A stretch of DNA of 42,042 bases from NCBI GenBank assembly GCA_013151415.1, contig JAADII010000042.1, positions 1-42,042 of the forward strand, written 5' to 3'. This DNA is from Chloroflexota bacterium (GTDB lineage: Bacteria; Chloroflexota; Anaerolineae; J102). The position numbers and the translations under genes are program-made. Below the pieces are notes generated by a model. That model ran no database searches. It was not told the origin of the DNA and was given only the letters and a program-made list of their open reading frames with translations. Positions 20,914-23,826 of this stretch are shown piece by piece. The number at the start of each line of letters is the position of its first letter. Position 1 is the stretch's first letter.

Positions 20914-21435
20914 ATGTCCCAATCAACACAAGGCGAAAGAATACCGAAGCAAGTAAAACCCCGCTATCAGGAGATTGTGGCTCTGACAGACAAGGTGTGT
21001 AAAGAGTATCTGAACGATGAATATGCTGAAATGGCTCGTAAGTTAGCTGCGCGTCTGGCGCGCAAACGACCCTCGCCTTTGTTGCGTGGGCGGCCTGAGA
21101 TTTGGGCGTGTGGGATTGTGTATGCGTTAGGATCGGTCAACTTTCTGTTTGACGGGTCGTTTGAACCATACTTGAGCGCCGAAGACCTGTGTCAAGTTTT
21201 TGGGGTGAGCAAGAGCAGTGGAGCAAACAGAGCGAAGCAAATCAAGGAAATGTTCAGGATGTTTCAGTTGGATCCAAAATGGACTTTGCCAAGCCGGATG
21301 GAAAACAATCCGCTGGTGTGGATGTTGGAAGTAAACGGAATGATAGTGGATGCGCGGTGGTTACCGCGAGAAGTGCAAGAAATTGCGTATGAGAAAGGTC
21401 TTATACCGTACATTCCAGCGGATCGTAAGGAGTAG
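20914..21435 (+). CDS. DUF6398-like protein
   Basis: 173-residue soluble protein. The order KVCKEYLNDEYAEMARKLAA, then KRPSPLLRGRPEIWACGIVYALGSVNFLFD, then LCQVFGVSKSSGANRAKQI and a C-terminal EVNGMIVDARWLPREVQEIA matches what I recall of the DUF6398 family. The middle segment LCQVFGVSKSSGANRAKQIKEM reads like a helix-turn-helix. The molecular function is unknown. The ATG at 20914 has AGGGGGAGAAAG directly upstream. Its codon use and composition are more AT-rich than the flanking operons, suggesting horizontal acquisition. Such genes are common in variable regions. Confidence 0.75.
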   Translation: MSQSTQGERIPKQVKPRYQEIVALTDKVCKEYLNDEYAEMARKLAARLARKRPSPLLRGRPEIWACGIVYALGSVNFLFDGSFEPYLSAEDLCQVFGVSKSSGANRAKQIKEMFRMFQLDPKWTLPSRMENNPLVWMLEVNGMIVDARWLPREVQEIAYEKGLIPYIPADRKE

Positions 21436-21458: not shown

Positions 21459-21551
21459 GAGATTGCTTCGACCTACGGCCTACTAAGAAACTTACCGTTT
21501 TTTTCTGTTTGAGCAGCGCCAATCGGTGCTGTGGCCTTACTCGCAATGACC
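21459..21551. repeat. Split copy of a common palindromic repeat
   Basis: GAGATTGCTTCG (21459-21470) and CTCGCAATGACC (21540-21551) are the two ends of the widespread bacterial intergenic palindrome that usually reads GAGATTGCTTCG..CTCGCAATGAC within about 35 nt. Here they are separated by 69 nt with no similarity to the usual core. The 333-nt gap between the DUF6398-like gene and greA otherwise holds the greA promoter, terminator and heptamers. Confidence 0.5.
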
Positions 21552-21600
21552 CTTATGAACGCGCCCCCACTTTGAAACGCGCTCCAAAGCAACCCATTTC

Positions 21601-21630
21601 TTGCCACCTTCGCGGCTTTCGCAGTATAAT
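21601..21630 (+). promoter_or_regulatory. greA promoter
   Basis: TTGCCA (21601-21606), 18 nt, and a perfect TATAAT (21625-21630). Transcription should begin near 21637. Confidence 0.75.
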
Positions 21631-21636
21631 GCTTTG

Positions 21637-21687
21637 CCGCGAAGCCCCCGGACGGAACTGAGACCCCGCGCTCAGTTCTTTCTTTTT
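21637..21687 (+). ncRNA. Short terminated greA leader RNA (predicted)
   Basis: From the predicted start near 21637 to the end of the T tract is about 51 nt. This RNA would consist of a short G/C-rich 5' part and the terminator hairpin. Existence as a stable RNA is inference. The layout resembles the GraL leader RNAs described upstream of greA in E. coli. Confidence 0.4.
21655..21687 (+). terminator. Intrinsic terminator in the greA leader
   Basis: GAACTGAG (21655-21662) and CTCAGTTC (21671-21678) form a perfect 8-bp stem with an 8-nt loop, followed at once by TTTCTTTTT. It lies between the promoter and greA, so greA expression needs read-through. Confidence 0.85.
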
Positions 21688-21735
21688 ATGGGTTCAAAGA
21701 TCGGGCGTGGTTCGACTTTGCGCATGGCTCATTAG

Positions 21736-21762
21736 TATCCAATACCCAATATCCAACTATCC
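21736..21762. repeat. Heptamers upstream of greA
   Basis: TATCCAA, TACCCAA, TATCCAA, CTATCCA: the same unit as at 2445-2507. The array lies between the leader terminator and the greA start codon, where a ribosome binding site would be expected; no clear one is visible. Confidence 0.7.
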
Positions 21763-21768
21763 ACAACT

Positions 21769-22254
21769 ATGAACGAAACCATTAATCACGAAGAAGCCGT
21801 TTACGTCACGCCGGAAGGGCTGGCCAAGCTCAAGGAAGAGCTGGAATGGCGCGAAAACGTGCGCCGTAAAGAGATCGCGCAGCAACTGGCCGCGGCCAAA
21901 GCCGAAGGCGATCTTTCCGAAAACGCAGGTTACGACGAAGCCAAATATCAGGCCGGCATGAACGAAGGCCGCATCCTCGAACTCAAGCAAAAGATCAAGA
22001 ACGCGGTCATCATCGAATCGGCGGGGCCCTCCGACACCGTGCAACTGGGCAGCACGGTCACCATCAAAGACCTGGAATTCGGCGACGAGGAAGTGTACAC
22101 CATCGTCGGCTCCACCGAATCCGACCCCGGCAACGGTCGCATCTCACACAAATCGCCTATGGGCGAAGCCCTGCTGGGCCGCGCGGTCGGCGACAAAGTC
22201 AGGGTGAATACGCCCGGCGGCGAACTCACCTTCGAGATACTGCGCATCGGCTAA
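21769..22254 (+). CDS. greA: Transcription elongation factor GreA
   Basis: Rescues backtracked RNA polymerase by stimulating transcript cleavage through the secondary channel. The 161-residue protein has an N-terminal coiled coil (VTPEGLAKLKEELEWRENVRR, about 13-33) with the acidic tip AEGDLSENAGYDEAK (about 45-59). The C-terminal FKBP-like domain includes VGSTESDP and the SPMGEALLGR stretch. It is normal in length. It heads a greA-lysS-GH57 operon and has a leader with an intrinsic terminator. Confidence 0.97.
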   Translation: MNETINHEEAVYVTPEGLAKLKEELEWRENVRRKEIAQQLAAAKAEGDLSENAGYDEAKYQAGMNEGRILELKQKIKNAVIIESAGPSDTVQLGSTVTIKDLEFGDEEVYTIVGSTESDPGNGRISHKSPMGEALLGRAVGDKVRVNTPGGELTFEILRIG

Positions 22255-22323: not shown

Positions 22324-23826
22324 ATGACCGACACCCAAACCATCCACCAAACCGAACAAGACCTGCTGGATCAGGAACGCGCGCGGCGGGAAAAACTGGA
22401 GCGCATGCGCGCGGCCGGCATCGATCCCTATCCCCCTCGCGTCGAACGCACCCACACCATCGCCCAGGCCATCGCCGCGTACAAGGCCGGCGAGTTGGGC
22501 GAGGATGAAGAAGTCAAGCTCACCGGTCGCATGGTTTTGCGCCGCGTCATGGGCAAACTCTCCTTCGCGCACATCGAAGATGGCTCCGGCCGCGTGCAGA
22601 TCATGCTTCAGCGCAATGTTTTGGGCGCAGAAGCCTACGACTTTTTCAAGAAAGACCTCGATTTGGGCGACATCATCGGCGTCGCGGGCGAGATGATCAC
22701 CACGCGCACGGGCGAAATCACCTGCCGGGTGCGCAAAATCACCATCCTGGCCAAGGCGCTCAAGCCCCTGCCCGACAAATGGCGCGGTCTCAAAGACCCC
22801 GAACTGCGCCAACGCATGCGCTATCTCGACCTGCTGGCCAACCCCGAAGTGCGCGAGGTCTTTCGCACGCGCGCGGCCATCGTGCGGGCGTTGCGCGACT
22901 ACTTCGACGGCGAGGGCTTTCTGGAGGTGGAGACCCCCATCCTCCAACCCATTTACGGCGGCGCGGCGGCCGAGCCGTTCGTCACCTATCACAACTACCT
23001 GCATCAAAAACTCTATTTGCGGGTGAGCTTCGAGCTTTATCTCAAGCGATTGCTGGTGGGCGGTTACGAGCGGGTCTATGAGATCGGACGCGACTTCCGC
23101 AACGAGGGCATCAGCCACAAACACAACCCCGAATTCACGCAACTGGAATTCTACGAAGCCTACACCGACTACGAAGGCGTCATGCGGCGCACCGAGGACA
23201 TGTTGGTGTTCGTGGCCGAGCGGGTTCTGGGCGGCCTGCAATTTCAATGGAAAGAGCACACCATCGATCTGACCCCGCCCTGGCCTCGCATTCCGCTGCG
23301 TCAGGCCATCCTCGACGCCAGCGACATCGACTACGAAGCCTATCCCGACGCGGACAGCCTGCGCGCGGTCATGCGCGAGCGCGGCATTGAGGCGGCCGCG
23401 GACGCATCGCGCGGCAAGCTCATCGACAAACTGCTGAGCCACTTCGTGGAGCCGAACCTCATCCAGCCCACCTTCCTCATCGACTACCCCCTGGACATCT
23501 CGCCCCTGGCCAAGCGCACGCCCGGAACCAAAGACATGGTCGAGCGCTTCGAGGGCTTTATGGGCGGCATGGAGATTTGCAACGCGTTCAGCGAGCTCAA
23601 CGACCCCCTGGACCAGCTCGAACGCTTTCTGCAACAGGGCCGCGCGCTCGATGCAGGCGATAAGGAAGCCCATCCGGTCGATGAAGATTATGTCAACGCC
23701 CTTATGTACGGCATGCCGCCGGCCGGCGGGTTTGGCATGGGCATCGACCGTCTGACCATGCTCTTCACCAACCAGGACAACATCCGCGAGGTCATCCTCT
23801 TCCCCCATCTGCGGCCCGAAAACTGA
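22324..23826 (+). CDS. lysS: Lysyl-tRNA synthetase, class II
   Basis: 500-residue class IIb LysRS. The N-terminal OB-fold anticodon-binding domain (about 60-150) contains LTGRMVLRRVMGKLSFAHI. It is followed by motif 1 around FLEVETPILQPIYGGA, motif 2 in YEIGRDFRNEGIS, and motif 3 in GFGMGIDRLTMLF at the C-terminus. It charges tRNA-Lys. The start ATG has no obvious Shine-Dalgarno sequence. The stop codon overlaps the next start as TGATG (23824-23828). Confidence 0.97.
   Translation: MTDTQTIHQTEQDLLDQERARREKLERMRAAGIDPYPPRVERTHTIAQAIAAYKAGELGEDEEVKLTGRMVLRRVMGKLSFAHIEDGSGRVQIMLQRNVLGAEAYDFFKKDLDLGDIIGVAGEMITTRTGEITCRVRKITILAKALKPLPDKWRGLKDPELRQRMRYLDLLANPEVREVFRTRAAIVRALRDYFDGEGFLEVETPILQPIYGGAAAEPFVTYHNYLHQKLYLRVSFELYLKRLLVGGYERVYEIGRDFRNEGISHKHNPEFTQLEFYEAYTDYEGVMRRTEDMLVFVAERVLGGLQFQWKEHTIDLTPPWPRIPLRQAILDASDIDYEAYPDADSLRAVMRERGIEAAADASRGKLIDKLLSHFVEPNLIQPTFLIDYPLDISPLAKRTPGTKDMVERFEGFMGGMEICNAFSELNDPLDQLERFLQQGRALDAGDKEAHPVDEDYVNALMYGMPPAGGFGMGIDRLTMLFTNQDNIREVILFPHLRPEN

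Follow-up and report, generated by a model that had tools for sequence, protein, structure and literature searches.

What does a terminator-like hairpin do between a promoter and the start codon of greA, in the leader of the gene that this promoter appears to serve? In a sequence-only reading, the window (the whole stretch of 42,042 nucleotides of Chloroflexota DNA that was analysed) had been described as carrying a TTGCCA-18-TATAAT promoter, an 8-bp terminator and greA, in that order, and direct reading of the sequence confirmed this arrangement (Table 1). The terminator had moreover been proposed to act prematurely in the greA leader and to release a short RNA. Our analyses indicate, with a probability of roughly four in five, that the element is a promoter-proximal intrinsic terminator in the greA 5′ untranslated region, which would throttle the expression of greA, usually together with that of lysS.

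Table 1. Positions of the features of the greA locus in the window
Feature	Position	Strand	Basis
Sigma-70-type promoter, TTGCCA + 18-nt spacer + TATAAT	21601..21630	+	sequence, consensus scan
-35 element, TTGCCA	21601-21606
-10 element, TATAAT	21625-21630
Predicted released RNA, ~51 nt	21637..21687	+	inferred from promoter and terminator
Predicted terminator hairpin, GAACTGAG-ACCCCGCG-CTCAGTTC	21655..21678	+	sequence, folding, conservation, covariation
5′ arm, GAACTGAG	21655-21662
Loop, ACCCCGCG	21663-21670
3′ arm, CTCAGTTC	21671-21678
T-rich tail TTTCTTTTT, predicted release site	21679..21687	+
Remaining greA 5′ untranslated region, without promoter-like site	21688..21768	+
greA, transcription elongation factor GreA	21769..22254	+	NCBIfam, Pfam; ATG at 21769
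lysS, lysine-tRNA ligase, 69 nt 3′ of greA; probably same operon	22324..23826	+

The promoter agrees with the consensus at 11 of 12 positions in a consensus scan. With a start site at ~21637, assumed to lie 7 nt 3′ of the -10 element, the released RNA would be 51 nt long, and the earlier proposal of a ~50-nt product is upheld as a prediction. The hairpin, the stem of which can be lengthened by a G-T pair (21654/21679), has a folding energy of -11.6 kcal/mol (z = -3.5 relative to shuffles). It is moderately stable, with four G-C pairs out of eight and a T-tract broken by one C, and given these features termination at this site may be weak. Counted singly, terminator-like matches in the window show no excess over chance (8 versus 7.6 expected), and we therefore tested the promoter and terminator arrangement as a unit, defined as a promoter-like site with a terminator of at least 8 bp and a T-run no more than 36 nt 3′ of it. 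A search of both strands of the 42-kb window finds a single instance of this arrangement, and 20 shuffled windows contain none.

Several repeats are found in the immediate surroundings. A dispersed repeat at 21461-21581, just 5′ of the greA promoter, ends before the -35 element and has at least 16 more copies in the same genome, at 81-98% identity. We considered that the hairpin might be a piece of this repeat and rejected the idea, as the repeat stops before the promoter and the hairpin is single-copy. A short repeat, TATCCAATACCCAATATCCAACTATCC, with more than 10 similar copies in the genome, is located at 21734-21763, directly 5′ of the greA start codon. Finally, a perfect 9-bp inverted repeat (CTTCGCGGC/GCCGCGAAG, at 21608-21616 and 21636-21644) flanks the -10 element. 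It is stronger than in 200 shuffles, yet it is missing from 17 relatives, and it is possibly a local operator.

Conservation of the terminator in relatives had been set beforehand as a test of the proposal, and the hairpin is indeed present in all 18 genomes of the window's family that yielded greA (the window's own among them, and chosen without use of the hairpin), as well as in other classes. In each of these 18 genomes, the -10 element is followed, after 19-28 nt, by GAACTG...CAGTTCT and a T-run. The two arms are 92% and 98% identical within the family; identity outside them is near random, with 33% over the 10 nt upstream, 37% in the loop and 29% over the 10 nt past the T-tract. A strict terminator rule is satisfied by 15 of the 18 family leaders, compared with 0.3 in shuffles, and by 34 of 83 leaders in the rest of the class, compared with 1.4 in shuffles. 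Five family members harbour a second terminator-like hairpin between the conserved hairpin and greA.

5′ hairpins can protect mRNAs, and the stem found in the window is of moderate strength, such that the hairpin might be an mRNA stabiliser, a processing site or a pause signal and not a terminator at all. However, a T-run follows the 3′ arm in all 18 family members and is one-sided, which would be needless for a stabiliser or a processing site, and we regard this explanation as improbable. The sequence analysis thus supports the proposed premature terminator in the greA leader.

The anatomy of the leader was compared over 63 sequences, a set gathered in part by the hairpin pattern and including a few near-identical pairs. 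A promoter-like site is present in the 75 nt 5′ of the hairpin in 56 of the 63 leaders, and the gap between the -10 element and the hairpin core has a median of 20 nt. No promoter-like site was detected between the hairpin and greA in any of the 63 leaders, nor at 21688-21768 in the window. This agrees with the earlier remark that no second obvious promoter precedes greA, the absence of such a promoter being the other test set beforehand. The distance from the hairpin to greA ranges from 22 to 281 nt (median 88), and the loops are 3-13 nt long. The flanks of the hairpin are asymmetric: 8-nt stretches contain on average 5.6 T 3′ of it and 1.7 A 5′ of it.

These data bear on two other explanations. 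A perfect inverted repeat just 3′ of a promoter could be a DNA operator that overlaps the start of the transcribed region and is bound by a dimeric repressor. Nevertheless, the distance between its half-sites varies with the length of the loops, which would be intolerable for a dimer, and the T-run is one-sided. These two observations led us to reject the operator, which is very improbable; in addition, the covariation described below preserves pairing over sequence at the outer and inner positions. The hairpin might also merely be the terminator of the upstream gene, given that the DUF6398 gene located upstream of the promoter in the window is co-directional with greA and ends at 21435. However, that gene and the hairpin are separated by the promoter, whose spacing is conserved, and the hairpin is unchanged in several relatives that have a divergent or another gene on its upstream side. 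We rejected this hardly credible explanation on the basis of the neighbours found in those relatives.

Covariation in related leaders, which the sequence-only reading had suggested as a check, was found as well. It was analysed on an alignment of 32 leaders with an 11-pair helix, which also served to build a covariance model. The helix shows 27 two-sided changes versus 13.1 in shuffles, a count inflated by kinship among the sequences. Its covariation score is 0.274 versus 0.171 in shuffles, noting that slid alignments, with fewer paired cells, also score lower. Neither value is reached in any of 500 shuffles. Among 57 distinct hairpins, joint changes are seen at the outer pairs (G-C, A-T, C-G) and at the inner pairs; the middle C-G, T-A and G-C pairs are invariant, which is partly imposed by the hairpin-based collection of the leaders. 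We define the hairpin of the Chloroflexota greA leader as ACTG(A/G)G..C(C/T)CAGT followed by a T-run, upstream of greA; by its sequence, the hairpin of the window is of this type.

We then examined how tightly this hairpin is linked to greA and how far it extends. The family hairpin pattern was found in 15 of 61 genomes, at a single site in each and at greA every time. A looser pattern, ACTGAG..CTCAGT with a T-run, is located at greA in 12 of the 14 genomes that have it. Applied to 201 genomes of the phylum, the covariance model, a home-made one whose E-values are rough, placed the hairpin immediately 5′ of greA in further classes (families f60, f67, f80 and others), as well as several weaker matches elsewhere, without linkage to greA. 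A scan of 84,980 species genomes with the strict form AACTGAGRG..CYCTCAGTT..TTTT yielded 77 stretches, 16 of which are greA-linked. All 16 belong to records named Chloroflexi/Chloroflexota, Dehalococcoidia, Chloroflexia, Herpetosiphonaceae or Thermobaculum, and no greA-linked strict form was found in other phyla among these 84,980 genomes.

The element is patchily distributed beyond the window's class, the strict rule being satisfied there by 9 of 40 greA upstream regions, and it is thus not essential to greA everywhere. No similar greA leader was found in 15 genomes, mostly of other phyla, that were reached via matches chosen for a pattern copy without greA linkage, and on this basis we rejected a greater age of the element outside the phylum. 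The greA terminators of Acinetobacter and Streptococcus equinus have other sequences. As judged from these genome comparisons, the element is a phylum-level feature, normally found upstream of a greA-lysS pair, and no oddity of a single genome.

Two hairpins at other loci were noted in the course of these searches. A similar strong hairpin, ACGGCTGAGGTGGTTGCCTCAGCCGT, with a T-run, is present in four genomes of one family, apparently at one shared non-greA locus. At position 1496 of the - strand of L137, a hairpin with a T-run precedes, by 78 nt, an ORF that begins like the translation factor LepA; this hairpin is possibly a second leader terminator.

Across the phylum, lysS is located 3′ of greA at 48 of 51 hairpin-bearing loci, and the same is true of 21 of 23 loci of the class without the core hairpin. 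Three loci have kept the hairpin without lysS beside greA, indicating that the element goes with greA. From this gene order, the terminator probably gates both greA and lysS.

The GreA proteins encoded behind the leader differ at their catalytic tip. In E. coli, residue D41 was needed for GreA autoregulation. An alignment of the tips shows that the GreA of the window (GDLSENAGYD) has the equivalents of D41 and E44. Six Dehalococcoidia GreA copies encoded behind the leader have the tip GGTENNAEY and lack the residues aligned to E. coli D41 and E44. In one of the genomes (G240), the other GreA copy has the D41/E44 motif but no leader (L263, L264). Should the Dehalococcoidia leader be sensitive to RNA cleavage, this activity would have to be supplied by the other GreA copy; otherwise the input differs.

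The architecture of the leader constrains the ways in which termination could be controlled. In 55 leaders, with the start assumed 7 nt after the -10 element, the predicted released RNAs have a mean length of 48 nt (range 31-57), and the predicted 5′ tail that precedes the hairpin has a median of 12 nt. We rejected an aptamer, a T-box, a riboswitch or a leader peptide, for which some 12 nt before the hairpin are too short, and a search of the leader region against Rfam gave no match up to E = 1. Prior to synthesis of the 3′ arm, the best fold of the nascent RNA has a mean energy of -3.6 kcal/mol, versus -15.8 for the hairpin, and a modest alternative fold covering half the arm is predicted in 9 of the 55 leaders. 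No consistent, strong competing fold that would serve as an antiterminator is predicted in these leaders. Given so short a tail and the lack of a predicted stable alternative fold, any control has to target either the polymerase or the hairpin.

We propose the following scenario. RNA polymerase would start at ~21637 and transcribe the hairpin and its U-tract after roughly 17 nt. A fraction of the complexes would stop at ~+51, releasing the short RNA, and only the read-through fraction would yield the mRNA of greA and probably lysS. Termination efficiency might then report the state of the elongating polymerase, such that greA would be under feedback control by the level of its product, as in E. 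coli, where catalytically active GreA represses via the leader in vivo, an effect that was not reproduced in vitro (PMC6829880). This feedback step, drawn by analogy, has in our view slightly less than even odds; it is complicated by the Dehalococcoidia GreA copies that are encoded behind the leader and lack both catalytic tip residues.

The short RNA might instead be the purpose of the system, with the terminator serving mainly to make a trans-acting regulator. Trans effects of GraL, the RNA made from the E. coli greA leader, have been reported (PMC6829880), and a discrete RNA of ~48 nt is predicted here as well. Nevertheless, the parts that could pair with targets are not conserved, with 26-33% identity in the tail and 34-42% in the loop, and the hairpin, seldom found at other loci, is linked to greA. 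We thus see only an outside chance for such a regulator.

A more serious alternative to feedback through the general elongation state, within the same terminator anatomy, is sequence recognition, in which a dedicated trans factor, or RNA polymerase itself, recognises the CUGAG/CUCAG stem and sets read-through. The GAACTG and CAGTTCT arms are constant in all 18 family genomes, with randomised loops and flanks; a plain terminator would tolerate compensatory changes everywhere, and the invariant arms therefore favour recognition of the sequence. In E. coli, swapping the terminator arms with the fold kept nearly abolished repression by GreA, and an as yet unknown accessory factor was proposed (PMC6829880). 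The constancy of the stem sequence in the window's family, beyond that of the fold, is what the arm-swap result would predict. On the other hand, no factor is known, and the covariation of the outer and inner pairs leaves only about five to six central pairs to be recognised. In addition, the invariance of the core over the 63 leaders is partly imposed by their collection, and a common ancestral sequence with ordinary constraint on the stem could explain part of the pattern. We consider sequence recognition tentatively, as a possibility that falls clearly short of even odds.

A bolder version appears rather unlikely to us, namely that the leader is a phylum-wide, sequence-specific RNA, with a factor that reads the CUGAG/CUCAG stem and sets greA-lysS output independently of GreA-stimulated RNA cleavage. 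The presumed independence stems from the fact that the leader is kept before the Dehalococcoidia GreA copies without D41 and E44 equivalents. If true, a brake of the GraL kind would have evolved independently here, with a different input. Sequence analysis shows a promoter-like site, a hairpin and a T-run at fixed spacing, with conservation, covariation and linkage to greA, and promoter-proximal termination in the greA leader is the reading that we retain.

The element can be compared with several known systems. It would share with classical attenuators (riboswitches, T-boxes and leader-peptide systems) an intrinsic terminator in the 5′ untranslated region that can be read through, but it differs from them by the lack of space for a sensing domain or a leader ORF and by the lack of an Rfam match. 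The greA/rnk group ranks seventh among gene families with attenuators, which were described in Proteobacteria, bacilli and Clostridia (Naville and Gautheret 2010, PMC2965389). Those leaders similarly have a premature terminator upstream of greA; however, they were described with a clear antiterminator (PMC2965389), and no consistent one is predicted in the Chloroflexota leaders. A word search of that paper returned no mention of Chloroflexi, and a literature search that covered few subscription journals retrieved no account of greA attenuation in Chloroflexota.

The closest parallel is GraL, as the sequence-only reading had suggested, and the layout agrees (PMC6829880). The E. coli leader likewise has a sigma-70 promoter and a terminator hairpin ~20 nt into the transcript, before greA (Potrykus 2010 as cited in PMC6829880; Dylewski 2019, PMC6829880). 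The GraL RNAs measure 37-59 nt, their hairpin is preceded by 19 nt, and about one third of the transcripts read through (PMC6829880); for the Chloroflexota RNAs, 31-57 nt are predicted. The greA AUG is at +150 in E. coli and at about +133 in the window. In both cases, the sequence of the terminator arms seems to matter. In contrast, the stem sequences are unrelated, that of E. coli being GACCTGGG..CCCGGGTC, and in Chloroflexota the gene downstream of greA is lysS and the stem is conserved across a phylum. The covariance model of the Rfam greA leader (RF01769) matched none of 41 genomes of the clade, with the E. coli control recovered. Given this result and the stem mismatch, we rejected homology to GraL by sequence; by these sequence comparisons, we place the Chloroflexota leader in the same functional kind as GraL but in a separate sequence family, an RNA element absent from Rfam.

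greA attenuators were described in Proteobacteria and Firmicutes. The Chloroflexota version is unrelated to them, minimal and highly conserved, which suggests that braking greA by early termination is either an ancient solution or a recurrent one. The Chloroflexota leaders also offer natural variants, with differing stems, GreA proteins with and without the catalytic residues, and leaders without lysS, with which to determine whether GreA activity sets read-through.
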